A stretch of 64,000 nucleotides of DNA from Planococcus maritimus (lineage in GTDB: Bacteria > Bacillota > Bacilli > Bacillales_A > Planococcaceae), in NCBI RefSeq assembly GCF_001687625.2, contig NZ_CP016538.2:2820501-2884500 (forward strand). Direction: 5' to 3'. Positions 4,938-54,788 of the stretch are shown here, one piece after another. Below the pieces are notes generated by a model. It was not told the origin of the DNA. It did not search any database and saw only the letters and a list, made by a program, of their open reading frames with translations. Every line of letters starts with the position of its first letter. The first letter of the stretch is position 1. The translations under genes were made by a program, and so were the position numbers.

Positions 4938-7046
4938 TTAAAACTTCATTTTCAACTTCCCTTCTTCTAATTCCAGGCTAGCATTGAACTTCTTGCCATT
5001 CTTCGAAACGAAGCCTTTGATGACCGGCGTTTTGCCCCTCGTACACAAGTATTCGATATGTTTAGCTGTCAGTCTTTTTTTCAAAAACACCGCTGGGAAA
5101 GATTGCTTGCAGCCATTGGCATGTTCGGTACAGCCATATGAGCCTTTACGTGAGATGATCGAGCCTTTTTTACAACGCGGGCATATCGCAATTTCGCTTC
5201 CTTGCAATAACGGCATTTCATCCGGCATTCCATTGCTGCGCAATTGCTCCGGCACGTCCTGCAGCAACTTCTCGATGAACTTTCCAATAGTGGCAAGAAA
5301 CACTTCCGACGAGCCTTCGCCTTTGCCGATTTTCTTCAAATAGCTTTCCCATTTGGCGGTCATCGATGGGCTCGACAGCAAATTGCCTTCAATCGCTTGG
5401 CACAGCATGCGTCCTTTCTCAGTGACTGAAACAATGTTTCTCTTGACCTCGATATAATTATGGCGCTTGATCGTTTCAATGATACCGCTGCGCGTCGCTT
5501 CCGTTCCGAGACCTTCGACTTCCTTGAGGATTTCGCTGTCCGCTACGTCTTCCGCGAACTTCCCGCAAGTTTTCATCATAGCAATCAATTGCCCTTCCGT
5601 ATAAGGCTTTGGCGCAGTCGTCATGCCCTCGGCAATAGCGATTGCTGCCGCTACTTGTTCTTGTACGGTCAATTCTGGAAGCGGCGGATCCTGTTTCGCT
5701 TCTTTGGCAGTCGGAAATAAAGACTTCCAGCCTTTGTCGAGCTCTGTCCGGCCGGTCGTATGGAATTCAAGCCCTTTGACATCGGTCACGACTTTTGTTT
5801 CGGCGTAACGGTAATCTCGGTGGAACATGCCGAGCGTCGTGCGCATCACTTCTTCGTATAAATTTCGCTCATCTTGTGGCAAGCCTTCAATTTTTCGAGC
5901 TGTCGGCAAACTTTTCGTCGGGATGATTGCATAGTGCTCCTGTACTTTCGTGTTGTCGACGAAACGCTTTTTCGGTGTTTTTGTTGCGATCGCAAACGGG
6001 GCATCGATGAGCTTTTGGTAACTCTCCACTTGGGCAGACAAATAGCCGAATTCTGCAGAGGTGATATGGCGCGAATCGGTCCGCGGATAACTGACGAGTT
6101 TCTTCTCATAGAGTTTTTGCATGGCTGATAGCACTTTTTGAGGGCTGTATTTCCATTTGCGGTTGGCAGCTGCCTGCAGGCTGGATAAAGAATGCAAAGG
6201 CTGCGGCGGAATGTGCTTTTCTGCCGTCTTTAATTGTTTAATAAAGCCTTGTGCTTTCCCTTCGATCAACTCGTGGGAAGCGAGAAGCTCTTGGGCTTTT
6301 TGGCGCTCTTTCGCTTTCAGTTTGGCTTTTCCTTTATAGCTGCCTTTCGCCGCTTTGAACTTCCCTTCGATTTCATAAAACGGTTCCGGCTTGAAGGCCT
6401 CAATTTCCTTTTGGCGCTGATAGATCAAAAAGACAGTTGGTGTTTGGACACGTCCAATTGCAAACACTTCGTGTATGCCGCGTTCTTGGAGCAGCAGGGA
6501 ATACAGTCTCGAACCGTTCATGCCAACGAGCCAGTCGCTGATTTGGCGCGCCCGTGCTTCTTCGTAAAGACGCAGGTCTTCTTTGTTGTCGCGCAAATTG
6601 CGGAAGCCTTCTCGCACTTCGTCGACTTCGAGTGAATTGATCCACAGCCGTTTGATGTGTTTGCCGCGCACGCCGGTCTGCCGGTAGATGCTATAGAAGA
6701 TATTCGAGCCTTCGCGGTCCACATCGCAGGCATTGATAACGGTATCGGTTTCTCTCAAGAGTTTTTTGATGATATTGAATTGAGTTGATTTGCCCCGCGC
6801 TACTTGGAATTGGTATTCGTTTGGCAAAATCGGCAAGGACGCGAGCGACCATTTGCCCCATTTCGGGTCGTAGGCTTTTGGCTCTTTCAGTTCAACGAGG
6901 TGGCCAATTCCCCAGGTAATGTAGGCGCCTTCCGGGAAGATCGGATTTGCCGCCATTTCCATATAGCCTTCCCGTTTCACCGTTTTGAATGCGTCGCCAT
7001 AGGCTTTTGCCTGACTCGGCTTTTCGGCTATAATTACTGGTTTCAT
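4938..7046 (-). CDS. topB: DNA topoisomerase III
   Basis: Type IA topoisomerase of 702 residues that passes single strands to decatenate and relax DNA. The N-terminal toprim domain shows IIAEKPSQAK at residues 5-14 and the acidic triad motif DVDREG at 108-113. The active-site tyrosine is Tyr320 in SYPRTDSRHI, and FAIGRVQTP at 195-203 is also typical. A C-terminal zinc-ribbon-like segment follows (CPRC...CTEHANGC). Length and order match Bacillus TopB (about 727). The start at ATG 7046 is preceded by GGAAAG. Upstream lies the repeat array, so the gene probably has its own promoter there. Confidence 0.95.
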   Translation of the reverse strand: MKPVIIAEKPSQAKAYGDAFKTVKREGYMEMAANPIFPEGAYITWGIGHLVELKEPKAYDPKWGKWSLASLPILPNEYQFQVARGKSTQFNIIKKLLRETDTVINACDVDREGSNIFYSIYRQTGVRGKHIKRLWINSLEVDEVREGFRNLRDNKEDLRLYEEARARQISDWLVGMNGSRLYSLLLQERGIHEVFAIGRVQTPTVFLIYQRQKEIEAFKPEPFYEIEGKFKAAKGSYKGKAKLKAKERQKAQELLASHELIEGKAQGFIKQLKTAEKHIPPQPLHSLSSLQAAANRKWKYSPQKVLSAMQKLYEKKLVSYPRTDSRHITSAEFGYLSAQVESYQKLIDAPFAIATKTPKKRFVDNTKVQEHYAIIPTKSLPTARKIEGLPQDERNLYEEVMRTTLGMFHRDYRYAETKVVTDVKGLEFHTTGRTELDKGWKSLFPTAKEAKQDPPLPELTVQEQVAAAIAIAEGMTTAPKPYTEGQLIAMMKTCGKFAEDVADSEILKEVEGLGTEATRSGIIETIKRHNYIEVKRNIVSVTEKGRMLCQAIEGNLLSSPSMTAKWESYLKKIGKGEGSSEVFLATIGKFIEKLLQDVPEQLRSNGMPDEMPLLQGSEIAICPRCKKGSIISRKGSYGCTEHANGCKQSFPAVFLKKRLTAKHIEYLCTRGKTPVIKGFVSKNGKKFNASLELEEGKLKMKF

Positions 7047-7164: not shown

Positions 7165-7890
7165 GAGTGAAGGTTTGCTCGTGGACATGTTTTTGAAGTT
7201 GAGTCGGGCTTCGTCTTGGTATTCGCCGCCCGGCTTTGGGTTGGCCTCTTGCAATAAGCCAGAAAGAACATCTGTCTTATTGCGTCGGCTCACCCTGTGC
7301 GCTGGGCAGCTTAGAGATTTCTTTGTGTGAAGTTTGTTTAGGCAGGTCTGCTTCTGTATTTAGTTGCCGGCTAGTGGGGGGAATCGCTTCCTGGATCTAG
7401 TGTAGAACTAGAGAATGAGGGGTTGCTTGCGGACATGTTCCTAGAGTTGAGTCGGGCTTCGTCTTGGTATTCGCTGCCCGGCTTTGGGTTGGCCTCTTGC
7501 AATAAGCCAGAAAGAGCATCTGTCTTATTGCGTCAGCTCACCCTGTGCGCTGGGCAGCTTAGAGATTTCGTTGTGTGAAGTTTGTTTAGGCAGGTCTGCT
7601 TCTGTATTTAGTTGCCGGTTAGTGGGGAAATCGCTTCCTGGGTCTAGTGTAGAACTAGAGAATGGGGGGTTGCTTGTGGACATGTTTTTGAAGTTGAGTC
7701 GGGCTTCGTTTTGGTATTCGCTGCCCGGCTTTGGGTTGGCCTTTTGCAATAAGCCAGAAAGAGCATCTGTCTTATTGCGTCGGCTCACCCTTTTACGCCG
7801 GGCGGCTTGGAGATTTCGTTGTGTGAAGACTGTTCAAACGGATCTGCTTTTGTATTCAGTTACCGGCTAGTGGGGAAATCGCTTCCTGGG
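7165..7890. repeat. Three tandem ~248-bp structured repeats
   Basis: The stretch from topB to the TauE gene holds no convincing gene but three tandem copies of a unit with period 247-248 (GAGTCGGGC at 7201, 7449 and 7696). Each unit has a long imperfect hairpin. The outer arm is GCTGCCCGGC or a variant (7225, 7473, 7720) and pairs with 7301-7310, 7549-7558 and 7797-7806. Inside it are GGGTTGGCC / GGCTCACCC, GCAATAAG / CTTATTGC and a short CAGA / TCTG. A second conserved block GCCGGCTAGTGGGG plus ATCGCTTCC ends each unit. Open frames in this array have no ribosome site, differ between copies and follow the DNA repeat. Two more diverged copies lie at 53655-54090. Confidence 0.85.
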
Positions 7891-7949: not shown

Positions 7950-7977
7950 AAAGCTTCCGGCAGCTGCCGGAAGCTTT
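7950..7977. terminator. Terminator after the TauE-like gene
   Basis: Perfect 28-bp palindrome centred on GGCAGCTGCC, flanked by an A-run on the left and a T-run on the right. It ends the minus-strand sulfur operon (stop at 7984). Confidence 0.9.
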
Positions 7978-7983
7978 CGTTTT

Positions 7984-8760
7984 TTACAGAATATCGAGCC
8001 AGATTTTAATGGCTGTCCCTAGGATCAATAGCGATAAAATCCACTGTAATACTTTAGTGTTCGCTTTTTGTCCTATTTTTGCGCCTAATGGAGCAGCGAG
8101 AATACTCGCAACAATCATCACAGCAGCCGGTCCGTATAAAATCTGATCGGTCACAATTTTACCAACCGTGGCACCGATAGATGAAATGAACGTGATTGCC
8201 AATGACGTTGCGATGGTCATGCGAGTTGGGATCCGCAAGACCACGAGCATAATTGGCACTAGAATGAAGGCGCCTGCTGCACCGACGATCCCTGCCGCAA
8301 TTCCTACGACAAAAGCCAGTCCAGCGGCAAGCCATTTATTGAAAGTCACTTGATCTGCCGGAATATCATCTAAGCCTTTTTTAGGGATGAACATCATAAT
8401 GACTGCAATGGTCGCGAGGACAGCATAGACAATATTGATAGCGGCCTCAGACAAGAGAGTCGAGCCGTATCCGCCGATAAAACTCCCGACGAGAATCGCG
8501 CCACCCATATAAGTGATAAGAGACTTATTCAAATACCCGCTTCCGCGGTATGCCCACACCCCAGCGATGGTTGCGAAAAACACTTGAATGGCACTAATGC
8601 CGGATACTTCATGGGCTGAAAATGCTGTATATCCCAGCATAACTGGGATATATAACAGCATCGGGTACTTGATAATAGAGCCGCCAATTCCGACCATCCC
8701 AGAGATGAAGGAACCGACAAAGCCGATCAAGAAAATAACAATCATAAAATCAATACTCAT
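7984..8760 (-). CDS. TauE/SafE family sulfite/sulfur-anion exporter
   Basis: 258-residue integral membrane protein with about eight helices in two repeated halves, each starting with a glycine-rich turn ([16 protein letters not shown] at about 20-35 and [18 protein letters not shown] at about 158-175), the hallmark of TauE/SafE. The family moves sulfite, sulfoacetate or related anions across the membrane. As last gene of an operon of persulfide-handling enzymes it most likely exports the sulfite or thiosulfate they produce, like TauE of the staphylococcal cst locus. That role is inferred from context. Confidence 0.88.
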
Positions 8761-25952: not shown

Positions 25953-26107
25953 AAAAAATGTCTCTTTTTTTATCAAAAAGAGACATCGAAAATGAAAATT
26001 CCGACTTATCTTTCAGAATGGCATCCATTCTGCAGGAATTGGCACCTTCCCATTATATGGGGGTTGCCGGACGTCATAGGGCCTTACCCTCGGTCTCTCT
26101 TGATAAG
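25953..26107 (-). promoter_or_regulatory. SAM-I riboswitch (S-box) controlling metNIQ
   Basis: Minus-strand leader with the S-box core. P1 is CTTATC (26102-26107) with GATAAG (26005-26010), and inside it are AGAGAGACCGAGGG, GGCCCTATGACGTCCGGCAACC and AAGGTGCCAATTCCTGCAGAA. The expression platform is a terminator hairpin ATGTCTCTTTTT / AAAAAGAGACAT (25958-25986) with a T-run. When SAM is bound the terminator forms and uptake of methionine is shut off. Confidence 0.96.
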
Positions 26108-26129
26108 CGTGCGTATTTGGTTGTTTTCC

Positions 26130-50396: not shown

Positions 50397-51844
50397 GAAC
50401 CGCCCCTTTCTTTCAAATCGCCGTGGATTCTGTCGGCCAACAATTTCGCTCCTTGCATAACGATTGGTATGCCGCCGCCCGGGTGGACAGAAGCTCCCAC
50501 TGCATACAAATTATCGGTGTCATCCGGTTTGACCTGAGGACGAAAGACGCCGGATTGCCGCAAGGTCGGGCCAATTCCAAAGCTGCCGCCCTTGAACAAG
50601 CCGAATGCTTCTGCCTCTTTTGGCGTACGCACATCCATCCATTCAATCGATTTCCGGAGATTCGGAAACGACAATGTCTCCATGCGGTCCAAAATACGCC
50701 CGATCCATTCTTCGTCTTGCTTCCAGTCAATTTCTGTACCTGAAGGGACCGGCACTAGTACGTACAACACCGATTTGCCTTCAGGAGCCAGAGAATCGTC
50801 AATAACAGAAGGATGGAATGTGTAGAATGCGGGGTTTTCGGTTTTTTGCCCTCTGACAAACACATCTTCCATATGTTCTTTATAATCATCACCGATAAAG
50901 AATTGGTGAACATTGACGTCTTTGTACACCTTGTCCAACCCAAAGTACAAAAGCACACAACCCGATGAAGGCGTGTATTCTTTCTGTTTCTTCATCGGCG
51001 CCAATTGATTCATTCCAGGGAAATCGCCGTTGTAGACAATGGCATCGTATTGTTCTGTACCTTGTGCCGTTTCGACCGCTGTCGCACGGCCATTTTCTTT
51101 TACGATACGTTGGACTGGCGTTTCAAGCCGGATATCGGTACCGCGGCTTCGCAATTCATCTTCCATGACTGGAATGATGCTTGCATAGCCACCTTTCACA
51201 TAATAGACACCGTGCTCATGCTCGCTGAATGGCACGAGTGAATACATTGCGGGTGCGCGGTAAGGATCTCCACCGATATACAAGGCCTGAAGAGAATAGG
51301 CCAGCTGCAGCCGTTCGTCCCTGAAATAATTTTCCATCAAGCGATGGACAGATTGCTGGGGTTTCAACTTCATCAAATTGCGGATATTGCGGAAGGTCCA
51401 AAAATCCGCTTTCCGGACAAAATCGTGTTCCAGAAAAGCTGGCTTGCCGATATCGAACCGCTTTTGCCCTTCGTCCATAAAACGGATAAACCCTTCTTTA
51501 TCGTCCGGGAACTGTTCTTCAACTTCTTGTAATTGACGCTCACGCCCAGGATATTTCGTGTACACTTTGCCGTCTGTAAAACGAATTGTGTAAAGTGGGT
51601 CGCATAATAACAATTCGATGCTTTCAGGGTCGATTCCTGCCTGCGCAAATAAATCACGGAACATTTCAGGCAATAATACAATCGTCGGGCCTTCATCGAT
51701 TCGGAAGCCGTCCCGTTCCACAAAGGCCATCCTGCCGCCAAGCTTATGTTCTTTTTCATAAATCGTGACCTCGTAGCCGAGCTTTGTTAAATAGAGCGCG
51801 CCCATCAAACCGCCGATGCCGCCTCCGATCATCGCTATTTTCAT
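50393..51844 (-). CDS. crtN: 4,4'-diapophytoene desaturase-like (CrtN)
   Basis: 483-residue FAD-dependent desaturase. IAMIGGGIGGLMGALYLTKLGYEVTIYEKEHKLGGRM opens the protein and DGFRIDEGPTIVLLPEMF follows; the end block is YAVGASVHPGGGIPIVMQGAKL. LYIGGDPYRAPAMYSLVP and ASVHPGGGIPIV are closer to S. aureus CrtN than the other two paralogues in this cluster, so I give it the main desaturation steps. Start at ATG 51844 overlaps the preceding stop (ATGA) and has GGAGGGG upstream. Confidence 0.8.
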   Translation of the reverse strand: MKIAMIGGGIGGLMGALYLTKLGYEVTIYEKEHKLGGRMAFVERDGFRIDEGPTIVLLPEMFRDLFAQAGIDPESIELLLCDPLYTIRFTDGKVYTKYPGRERQLQEVEEQFPDDKEGFIRFMDEGQKRFDIGKPAFLEHDFVRKADFWTFRNIRNLMKLKPQQSVHRLMENYFRDERLQLAYSLQALYIGGDPYRAPAMYSLVPFSEHEHGVYYVKGGYASIIPVMEDELRSRGTDIRLETPVQRIVKENGRATAVETAQGTEQYDAIVYNGDFPGMNQLAPMKKQKEYTPSSGCVLLYFGLDKVYKDVNVHQFFIGDDYKEHMEDVFVRGQKTENPAFYTFHPSVIDDSLAPEGKSVLYVLVPVPSGTEIDWKQDEEWIGRILDRMETLSFPNLRKSIEWMDVRTPKEAEAFGLFKGGSFGIGPTLRQSGVFRPQVKPDDTDNLYAVGASVHPGGGIPIVMQGAKLLADRIHGDLKERGGS

Positions 51845-53367
51845 ACATACCCCTCCACTTTTGGAAGCGGGCCGATCGGAATTCCGGATTTGCCGTCTTC
51901 TTTCAAAATGCCGTTCGCTGTAATGCGGGCTGATTCTAAGATGGTTGGCAAACCGCTGCCAGGATGCGTACCGCCGCCAACCAGCCAGCAATTGTCGAGC
52001 TCTTCGAATTTATTGTGCGGACGGAAAACCATCATTTGCGATAATTGATGTCCCAGATTGAACGTAGCGCCGCGGTACACGGAGTAATCCGATTCCCAAC
52101 CGAATGGTGTCAGCATCTTCTCTACTTCGATATGGTCGCGCAAATCTTTGAAATCGGTTTTTTCTTCGATAATGTCCAGTACCAGTTCACGGAATGCTTC
52201 CTGCTCGTTTTCCCAGCCGATATCGCTGAAATTATTCGGCACTGGCGCCAGTATATAAAGTGCCGACTTGCCTTCTGGTGCCAAGGTCGGATCCGTCACG
52301 CTGGCGTTTTGGACGTAAATCGAAGGATCTGCCGACAAGATGCGCGACTTGGTCATTTCTTCGACGTTCCGCTTATAGTCTTTGGAGAAAACGATGGTGT
52401 GATGCGATAAATCGTATTTCTTGTCGAGCCCTAAATAAAGCATGAATGTCGAACAGGAATATTTTTTCTTATCGAGCTTTTGAGGAGTGTATTTTTTCAA
52501 AATACCAGGCTCTACTAGATGAGTCATGACATGGGCAAAATCGCCATTGATTACCACTTCATCCGCTGCTTCGCGGCTGCCATCGTATAGATCGACCCCT
52601 TTTACTGTCCGGTCCTCAATCCACAGTTTCTGTACGCCTTTATTGAGATGGATGCGGCCACCCATTTCCTTGACCGCCTTGGCCATTGCTGCAGACAATT
52701 GGTTGACGCCGCCAATTGGATGATAGATGCCGTATGCATGTTCCATATAAGACAGGATTGTGAAAGCCCCTGGGCATTCCCAAGGCGACATCCCTAAGTA
52801 TTTGGACTGGAATGCAAATGCCATTTTCAAACGTTCGTCTTTAAAGTAACGGGATAGCACATCGTAAAGAGTCTTGCCTACTTCAAGTTCCGGAAGTGCT
52901 TTAATCACTTTCGGCTGCATCAGGTCCGTCATGCGGTCCATTTTCGTTTGCAGCAATGGAGACATCGCTTCGAGCTTCTTGCCTGTGTCGTTCATAAAAC
53001 GCACATAACCGTCCCCATCGCCTTTGAAGTTTTCATCAATTTGTTTGCGCATTTCTTCCGGGTTGCGCGTCATCACCAAGTTCTGGTCTTCAAAGCGCAA
53101 TTCGTACATCGGGTCCAGTTCGACCGCTTCCATATAATCATGGACATTGCGTCCAGTCGTTTCAAACAATTCCTCTACTAGATGAAGCATGCTCAAAAAC
53201 GTTGGGCCTGTATCAAATGTGAAATCGCCTAAGGTTAATGCAGCATTGCGTCCGCCGATGCGGTCATTTTTTTCATAAATGTCGACTTGGTACCCTTTGC
53301 TGGCTAAAAGCATTCCTGCTGCCAAGCCGCCTGGGCCCGCTCCTATAATGATCATTCGTTTTGCCAT
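51841..53367 (-). CDS. CrtN-family desaturase/oxidase paralogue
   Basis: 508 residues of the same FAD family: MIIIGAGPGGLAAGMLLASKGYQVDIYEKNDRIGGRN near the start, FTFDTGPTFLSMLHLVEELF, and GGGTHPGSGLPTILESARIT near the end. It differs from both crtN and crtP of this cluster, and the similar three-paralogue sets (CrtNa, Nb, Nc) known from related pigmented Bacillales suggest division of labour between desaturation and terminal oxidation. The exact step cannot be told. It is first in its operon; a GGGGG site precedes ATG 53367. Confidence 0.75.
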   Translation of the reverse strand: MAKRMIIIGAGPGGLAAGMLLASKGYQVDIYEKNDRIGGRNAALTLGDFTFDTGPTFLSMLHLVEELFETTGRNVHDYMEAVELDPMYELRFEDQNLVMTRNPEEMRKQIDENFKGDGDGYVRFMNDTGKKLEAMSPLLQTKMDRMTDLMQPKVIKALPELEVGKTLYDVLSRYFKDERLKMAFAFQSKYLGMSPWECPGAFTILSYMEHAYGIYHPIGGVNQLSAAMAKAVKEMGGRIHLNKGVQKLWIEDRTVKGVDLYDGSREAADEVVINGDFAHVMTHLVEPGILKKYTPQKLDKKKYSCSTFMLYLGLDKKYDLSHHTIVFSKDYKRNVEEMTKSRILSADPSIYVQNASVTDPTLAPEGKSALYILAPVPNNFSDIGWENEQEAFRELVLDIIEEKTDFKDLRDHIEVEKMLTPFGWESDYSVYRGATFNLGHQLSQMMVFRPHNKFEELDNCWLVGGGTHPGSGLPTILESARITANGILKEDGKSGIPIGPLPKVEGYV

Positions 53368-53416: not shown

Positions 53417-53654
53417 ACAGTATATACATCTCTTCCCTAAAAGACTAATTATTTAACCTCTATACGGGACTTGTTTTCATATTCTTGGGTTCTGGTGAAT
53501 AAAATTGCTGTATTGGATGGATCGTTGCTGTGAGCATGAAGCTCAGTGCCGTTTTCTATTGGAAATGGTAGAAGCACTTCACGTAGTAGGAGTTTAATAA
53601 AGATAGCGTGAGATTTTGTGTGTATTTGTTTCGGTTGCTGGATTGAGTTTCTGC

Positions 53655-54090
53655 TTGAGAGTCGCCGGCCGGCTTTGGGTTGGCCTCTTGCCGTAAGCCA
53701 GGAAGTGCGCCTGTCTTACGGCGTCGGCTCACCCTTTTGCGCTCGCCGGCTGAGTGATTTCGTTGATCACTGTGTGTTTAAGTAGATCTGCTTTTTTACC
53801 CAGTTGTCGGCTAGTGGGGGAATCGCTTCCCGGCATCCGGTATGTGTGAAGATAGTGAGAGTTTGTTTGTGAAATTTTTTCGGGGCTTGGCAATGAAGTT
53901 TCTTTTGGTTATTCGCCGCCTTGCTTGGGGTTGGCCTTTGGCAGTAAGCCAAGAAGACCATTTGTCTTACTGCGTCGGCTCACCCTGGGCGCTCGCCGGC
54001 TGAGAGATCTCGTTGATCGATGTGTGTTTAAGTAGATTTGCTTTTTTACCTAGTTGCCGGCTAGTGGGGGAATCGCTTCTTGGATGGTGG
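53655..54090. repeat. Two further copies of the structured repeat
   Basis: The 857-bp stretch between the pigment operon and the YocH-like gene holds two copies with period 251 of the element seen at 7165-7890. The hairpin is kept but its sequence differs: GCCGTAAG / CTTACGGC and CAGG / CCTG in the first copy, GCAGTAAG / CTTACTGC and CAAG / TTTG in the second. GGGTTGGCC / GGCTCACCC and the tail GGCTAGTGGGGGAATCGCTTC are conserved. The rest of the stretch (53420-53650, 54091-54190) shows nothing I can name. Confidence 0.82.
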
Positions 54091-54192: not shown

Positions 54193-54222
54193 AAAACCCG
54201 GCAGCTGAATCTGCCGGGTTTT
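54193..54222 (-). terminator. Terminator after the YocH-like gene
   Basis: AAAACCCGGCAG (54193-54204) / CTGCCGGGTTTT (54211-54222), 3 nt after the stop. Confidence 0.93.
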
Positions 54223-54224
54223 GC

Positions 54225-54788
54225 TTATTTTAGGATTTTGATTTTCACGTTTTTGCGTCCCCATTTAAGCGCTTGGCTTTGAGTTGGGATGAAGACGTCG
54301 ATTTTATTGCCTTTGATTGCGCCGCCCGTATCGCCAGCGACGGCGTAGCCGTATCCTTCCACCCATACTTTCGTACCGAGCGGGATGACTTTCGGGTCGA
54401 CTGCGATGACTTTAGCTCCTGGGTTCTTCTTTAGGTTAATACCGGTTCTTGTAATACCTGAGCACCCTTTGCAATAAGCTGTATACGCTGTGGACGAAAC
54501 CGTGAATTCCTTCACTACTTGATCCTTGCTTGAAGATGGAGTGGACGGCTTAGAGATGGTTTGAGCTGTTGTTTTTTTCAACTTTAATTGTTGTTTTGGG
54601 AAAATCAAGTTCGATTTCAAACCATTCCATGACTTTAAGTTGTTGACGGAAACTTTCGTTTGTTGGGAAATTTTATAAAGCGTATCGCCGCTTTTCACTG
54701 TATATACATTTGATGCTGCCGAAGTTGTAACTGAAGTTCCAATCAATAAGAGCAATGCCATTCCTAAAGCCGCCAATAATTTTTTCAA
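54225..54788 (-). CDS. yocH: Secreted LysM and 3D-domain protein (YocH-like)
   Basis: 187 residues: a signal peptide (about 1-25, ending TSAAS), one LysM domain (YTVKSGDTLYKISQQTKVSVNNLKSWNG, 29-56) that binds peptidoglycan, a Ser/Thr linker, and a C-terminal 3D domain with the three Asp in IAVDPKVIPLGT, VAGDTGG and NKIDVFIP. The 3D fold is a lytic-transglycosylase-like wall hydrolase domain. The closest known case is B. subtilis YocH, a muropeptide-linked wall hydrolase controlled by WalR. Start is TTG 54788, with AAGGGGATAGGA upstream. Its promoter has a WalR-like box. Confidence 0.88.
   Translation of the reverse strand: MKKLLAALGMALLLLIGTSVTTSAASNVYTVKSGDTLYKISQQTKVSVNNLKSWNGLKSNLIFPKQQLKLKKTTAQTISKPSTPSSSKDQVVKEFTVSSTAYTAYCKGCSGITRTGINLKKNPGAKVIAVDPKVIPLGTKVWVEGYGYAVAGDTGGAIKGNKIDVFIPTQSQALKWGRKNVKIKILK

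Follow-up and report, generated by a model that had tools for sequence, protein, structure and literature searches.

A BIME-like extragenic hairpin repeat of the Planococcaceae whose fold may be kept at the DNA level

Which constraint keeps a long hairpin intact in tandem repeats that lie between the genes of Planococcus maritimus? The question arises from the window analysed here, a stretch of 64,000 nucleotides of the P. maritimus chromosome (NZ_CP016538.2, positions 2,820,501 to 2,884,500), in which a first-pass annotation made from the letters alone had described tandem units of ~248 bp in the spacer between topB and a TauE gene and had counted five copies of the family. The joint change of paired bases was taken there as selection on a fold, and three possible uses were offered, i.e., an RNA family, a transposase-mobilised palindrome or a chromosome-organising element. 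None of these three uses is proven. The element is well suited to the question of whether covarying pairs in bacterial intergenic repeats reflect a fold of the RNA or of the DNA.

It was found by nucleotide profile matches and repeat finding that the topB-tauE spacer is filled by three head-to-tail units and a second spacer by two, in agreement with both the repeat and the five copies described before. In the profile search the units span ~224 bp each, all on the + strand, and occupy window positions 7170-7889 (three units) and 53610-54083 (two units). Array 1 is composed of units at 7170-7394, 7418-7641 and 7666-7889 with a unit-to-unit start distance of 248 bp. Their hairpin cores were placed on the + strand at 7216-7325 (a covarying core) and 7464-7573 by alignment and pair analysis, and at 7711-7821 by alignment and single-stranded DNA (ssDNA) folding, the third forming a long hairpin on both strands. 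Array 2 contains units at 53610-53833, with a core at 53655-53765 (+; alignment, ssDNA folding), and at 53858-54083, with a core at 53906-54015 (+; alignment, pair analysis). As assigned by domain matches, array 1 is flanked by genes for a DNA topoisomerase (Topoisom_bac, Toprim; 4938-7046) and a TauE/SafE family protein (7984-8760), and array 2 by genes for a flavin amine oxidoreductase family protein (51841-53367) and a protein with LysM and 3D domains (54225-54788), all four on the - strand. Two terminator-like hairpins on the - strand were positioned from a terminator scan, one of the tauE gene at 7950-7977, between tauE and array 1 and followed by a T-run on that strand, and one of the LysM/3D gene at 54194-54221, beside array 2. 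A protein-coding origin was rejected: the 128-aa open reading frame across units 2 and 3 has no Pfam match, and the 248-bp start distance breaks the frame.

Each unit consists of an approximately 105-nt imperfect hairpin, whose apical region is conserved, and of clade-specific linkers. Paired changes are present in the window letters themselves (GCAATAAG/CTTATTGC, GCCGTAAG/CTTACGGC and GCAGTAAG/CTTACTGC; in the inner stem CAGA/TCTG versus CAGG/CCTG), and further paired shifts among the cores lead from GGCC/GGCT to GAGC/GCTT and from GGGT/ACCC to GGGC/GCCC. The inner changes quoted by the first-pass annotation were recovered in the sequence for CAGA/TCTG and CAGG/CCTG, but the third, CAAG/TTTG, contains one G.T pair; likewise its paired change in the outer arm is present, although pairing there is incomplete (a C/A mismatch in copy 1, at 7216, and a T/G pair in copy 3, at 7711; pair 12-95). 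The predicted hairpin comprises 24 pairs, 14 of which show double changes among the 73 distinct cores of the P. maritimus genome. In these cores 178 double-changed cells were observed compared to 50.3 +- 6.9 in shuffles that ignore relatedness, and further pair types did not exceed the shuffles (28 vs 28.6). Over 96 cores from several genera, distant ones included, double changes were found at 21 of 24 pairs, with 385 double-changed cells versus 108.4 +- 9.5 in shuffles that again ignore relatedness. Sliding the partners by 1-3 columns abolished the signal in the 96 cores. This alignment leans towards the hairpin because it was fitted to a model already carrying that structure, while the first alignment was built without structure. 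Compensatory changes of the kind that characterise a structured non-coding RNA were thus found in both core sets, and it is well supported that the paired change marks constraint on the fold of a multi-copy, intergenic family, as had been proposed.

Certain positions are hardly ever Watson-Crick. Below the apical helix a C/T mismatch is replaced by a Watson-Crick pair in only 1 of the 73 own-genome cores and in 2 of the 96 wider cores; for a second mismatch, located in the middle stem (T/C in the own genome, A/A in most others), the counts are 0/73 and 3/96, and its inner neighbour is a G.T pair in 68/73 own-genome cores and mostly T/T elsewhere. Folding as ssDNA gave the long hairpin for either strand of the copies at 7715-7815 (z -3.9 and -4.4) and 53659-53759 (z -2.1 and -3.4), and the whole 244-nt unit folded as RNA shows modest stability (z -1.8 on the + and -2.4 on the - strand). 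A SAM riboswitch within the window (26003-26109, - strand) served as control family, represented by 29 distinct rows out of 31 (the 30 top-scoring matches and the window copy) and by an RNAalifold structure rather than the curated one. Double-changed outnumber single-changed cells by 385 to 17 in the element (96 cores) and by 154 to 10 in this control, so that the excess is not special to the element. The ratio of G.T to A.C cells, 13:28, 16:25 and 19:43 in the element, was dropped as a test of strand or of RNA versus DNA, since the SAM riboswitch of the same genus gave 17:14 and the ratio therefore decides nothing in this respect. The covariation of the element is as clear as that of the riboswitch control, a warning that a motif is not shown to be an RNA by covariation by itself.

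A covariance model (R2), built from the 96 cores, yielded 94 matches in the 3.28-Mb Planococcus chromosome; after two weak opposite-strand matches overlapping strong ones and one partial match were set aside, 91 copies remained, which form 43 arrays of 1-4 units spaced mainly near 216 and 247 bp. An earlier iterated nucleotide profile had given 81 matches, 74 of them near full length, in 32 arrays within the stretches of chromosome examined. At least 101 of 261 genomes of the family set, including all 46 of the genus, were positive with model R2 and at least 87 of 261 with model R1, where the best 14 candidates per genome were scored; in a class-wide sample, with the best nine candidates scored, at least 20 of 398 genomes were positive, and stricter filters mean that weakly matching genomes may be missed by these searches. 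An order-level search with R2 drew on no genomes beyond the 261 of the family set. All 20 positives of the class sample belong to the window's own family. Bacillales, the range suggested in the first-pass annotation for a covariance-model search, thus proved too wide. The highest count in one genome was 136 model matches, and among named relatives all 62 stretches that match a 25-base unit signature are from Planococcus, P. citreus DSM 20549 being one of the carriers. Phage records contained no match to the element. A plasmid origin was discarded, as the sole match in the plasmid collection, NZ_CP025126.1, is a linear 7-kb sequence with three units, and none of the five features listed for it is a replication gene; although labelled a plasmid, it equals a contig of genome G106 in length and is probably a chromosomal contig.

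Across the window and 16 further loci no Rfam family reached its gathering cut-off for the element, and a permissive scan of the window array gave one weak match only, far below its cut-off; at one locus (L092) a Bacillaceae-1 match on the opposite strand reaches into the end of a divergent copy. The earlier remark that no known non-coding RNA or riboswitch was recognised is borne out for this multi-copy intergenic family, which lies outside Rfam over these sequences. In the literature searched, mostly open-access and judged on titles and the beginnings of abstracts, no recognisable description of this family was found. A hairpin repeat with up to 136 model matches per genome, widespread within one bacterial family, was thus not found described.

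With respect to genomic placement, all of the 32 arrays examined lie clear of the genes predicted by codon-usage ORF picks, which are not an annotation and on which the orientation classes of spacers also rest. Both neighbours could be assigned for 31 arrays, which divide into 20 in tandem, 11 in convergent and none in divergent spacers, compared to 65 tandem, 8 convergent and 21 divergent among 94 array-free spacers of at least 80 bp; divergent spacers are depleted (Fisher p 0.0018) and convergent ones enriched (p 0.0008). A terminator-like hairpin with a T-run precedes the array at 40 of 43 facing gene 3' ends versus 3.8% of shuffled spacers. Within about 150 nt of the 3' end such a terminator is present at 34/43 ends facing an array and at 47/81 ends without one (p 0.028), so that the excess over ordinary 3' ends is only modest, although 34/43 may be low because the terminator finder kept the longest stem. 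REP/BIME elements are placed at gene ends as well. No common function of the flanking genes was seen in a scan of 61 of the 63 listed flanking proteins, with two left out: among the 25 commonest of 161 Pfam families the most frequent occurs in 5 proteins, and none of these 25 is a transposase.

The arrays change between genomes. At the tauE site of relatives (tauE 82-87% identical) 0 to 3 units were found per locus in a comparison covering loci from 30 of 41 matching genomes, one locus being cut off by a contig end; variants include one copy split by an inserted segment, one site with unrelated sequence and no unit, and one 67-base remnant. In genome G096, both flanks were found for 12 of the 32 arrays, the other 20 being not comparable because only 20 interpolated stretches were covered; a unit or remnant is present at 10 of these 12 sites and two are empty in G096. 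Unit number differs at 8 of the 10 retained sites. At the two empty sites, read by eye, no target-site duplication of the kind expected of a MITE was legible. Deletions of the apical hairpin part occur among the copies, and in four copies, two each in the own genome and G096, a single ~110-bp repeat has taken the place of the apex, always at the same point (L260:8631-8747, L138:1206-1322, L034:4179-4295 and L032:4288-4403, four different sites), with weaker matches elsewhere in the examined stretches. The repeat period is about 148-157 bp in two arrays of a second complete Planococcus genome (G086). A distant genome has copies that face opposite ways at a distance of about 200 bp and are not arranged head-to-tail (L094:1501-2097).

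Mosaic structures were observed as well. At one site the own genome and G083 share about 700-800 bp of intergenic sequence at 99-100% identity (L156 and L158, 1-3699; also L162 and L163), while windows in the flanking genes are mostly 80-97% identical, a sign of recent exchange between species; the tail part of this block is shared by G120 and G097 as well, where the breakpoint falls within the array. Downstream of many arrays (L156, L157, L159, L161) stands another hairpin repeat (GACGGAGTGGAAGGGGGCTGACGCC..., its loop stem being for example ACGTGTCGC/GCGACACGT), which also shows paired changes by eye; in L161 it is adjoined by Bacillaceae-1. Many intergenic copies and regular arrays mixed with other repeats, as known for BIME-like mosaics, are therefore found here.

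Taken together, we give an even chance to the explanation that the arrays are an extragenic, BIME-like repeat of the Planococcaceae whose hairpin is kept at the DNA level. It covers the many dispersed copies outside predicted genes, the head-to-tail arrays that vary in unit number between species at the same site, the paired letter changes next to set mismatches that stay non-Watson-Crick, the placement at gene 3' ends, where a terminator-like hairpin usually comes first, the lack of arrays in the divergent spacers examined, and the mosaics with other hairpin repeats. Mechanistically, the hairpin would be kept as the strand, folded while single-stranded during a replication, recombination or transposition step, is recognised by a protein of the host or of a mobile element. 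Units would be gained by occasional dispersal, arrays might grow and shrink by homologous recombination between neighbouring units, and copies would persist in spacers between terminators, where they presumably do least harm. Among the RAYT loci (discussed below) and neighbour proteins looked at, no partner protein for this reading was found. Counted against it are further that covariation is equally expected of an RNA, that no target-site duplication was legible at the two empty sites, that the sites are fairly stable, 10 of the 12 that could be compared retaining a unit or remnant, which is slow for a mobile element, that the terminator excess is modest, and that the origin bias of the own genome (see below) is not explained by it, though this bias did not recur in G086.

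The alternative of a structured non-coding RNA family, a use already offered in the first-pass annotation and taken here as single or tandem units transcribed from the spacers and acting in trans or binding a protein, stays a candidate that we hold to be possible, if clearly less probable. Such a family would be expected to covary strongly while its mismatches and its apical region are conserved, as is seen here, and the intergenic placement, usually past gene terminators, suits it. Furthermore, the composite downstream of one array contains a match to Bacillaceae-1 (RF01690), a motif rated 'Y' (certainly RNA) in the table of its authors (PMC2864571). However, in a crude sigma-70 scan, which other promoter types escape, neither strand carried more promoter-like sites than its shuffles (3 of 32 arrays on each, with shuffle means of 6.4 and 5.9), and at tandem-gene sites the + strand of the unit agrees with the genes in 7 cases and opposes them in 13. 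The period also varies by clade, from about 148-157 bp in the two G086 arrays to near 216 or 247 bp here, and 43 sites per genome are many for an sRNA gene.

A more specific idea, which we consider unlikely, holds that a structure-guided system, unrecognised so far and specific to the Planococcaceae, uses the hairpin as its substrate. Such a system would act on folded ssDNA, recognise the hairpin by its conserved mismatches, disperse units to gene ends and exchange the apex, for which the four copies with the ~110-bp repeat in place of the apical loop, always at one point, would be examples. A partner protein, if found, could reveal a new hairpin-recognising system.

The hairpin might also lack a selected function, if intra-strand template switching copied one arm onto the other and produced double changes by mutation alone. 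The large majority of double over single changes (385 vs 17 cells) is what this process would leave behind, and apical deletions and apex replacements occur. Yet template switching should also mend mismatches, and the two conserved ones are Watson-Crick in only 2/96 and 3/96 cores, the letters of one differing between lineages; moreover, the riboswitch control has a similar excess (154 vs 10). We regard this explanation as rather improbable.

For a chromosome-organising or replication-related site the chances appear very small. Of the 43 arrays of the own genome, 34 fall within the origin-proximal arm halves and 31 are directed towards the origin (p 0.005), but in G086 12 of 28 arrays point to it and 18 of 28 lie in these halves (hand counts; both chromosomes start at dnaA, by eye), and gene direction correlates with replication and is confounded with it in these counts. 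Origin orientation was therefore set aside as a general feature, and the chromosome-organising use offered before is not upheld by this second complete genome.

That the element is a REP/BIME mobilised by the RAYT-type Y1 transposase of the genome is scarcely credible. In its favour, one Y1_Tnp match is present in the P. maritimus genome, five of the six genus genomes with at most five element matches have no Y1_Tnp and the sixth, G085, has a weak one (E 1.8e-5), and GTAG stands directly before the hairpin in 20 of 73 own-genome cores. Against it, Y1_Tnp is lacking in G184 (96 element matches) and G199 (33) and occurs in 29 of 46 genus genomes versus 46 of 46 for the element. Ten RAYT-type genes, one from each of ten genomes, have no copy in the surrounding 5-5.5 kb (G246, one of the ten, has no element match at all), and another short repeat borders at least four of them (by eye). 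After inspection of these ten loci RAYT was discarded as partner. The single RAYT-type Y1 transposase gene of P. maritimus (L186:2250-3300; G000:C1:2382979-2383314) has short GTCCCTGTGCACCACACAATT-like repeats on both sides (by eye), which are likely its own element, in place of the hairpin unit described here. A transposase-mobilised palindrome, as proposed earlier, would agree with copies that are dispersed and form arrays, but the one Y1 transposase has a different flanking repeat and no copy of the element in the surrounding 5.5 kb.

Intergenic hairpin repeats are well known as a kind, REP/BIME, bcr1 and others being described in several sources (PMC2267715, PMC3733652, PMC2817692, PMC3116915). 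REP/BIME are multi-copy extragenic hairpins in composite, regularly spaced structures (PMC2817692), and REPs can be insertion targets of other elements (PMC8450116). Like REP/BIME of enterobacteria and Pseudomonas, the element is an extragenic multi-copy hairpin in regular composite arrays. In contrast to these, its hairpin measures about 105 nt versus 20-40 bp in REP, its arrays are mostly head-to-tail, GTAG precedes the hairpin in only 20/73 cores, with 14 of the 96 rows of the wider alignment carrying it within their first ten letters, and no link to a RAYT was seen. Within the Bacilli, Bcr1, Bant-1, Bhal-1 and Bhal-2 are stem-loop multi-copy repeats of single species, tabulated by size and copy number (PMC2267715). 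The element shares with these, as so described, a stem loop and multiple copies in Bacilli, but its hosts differ, being confined to the own family in the 398-genome class sample; the distinction is drawn by description. With the Bacillaceae-1 RNA (RF01690), a different motif of 67 nt with no Rfam match across the window hairpins, it has in common that both are structured intergenic motifs, and Bacillaceae-1 matches share composite spacers with the element (L161, L092). The STAXI motif is a pseudoknot in other hosts and near DNA-handling genes, unlike the element; it is also a tandemly repeated structure for which the authors discussed a role as single-stranded DNA (PMC2864571), and as such it resembles the element described here, a tandem repeat of a structured unit with a possible single-stranded DNA role.
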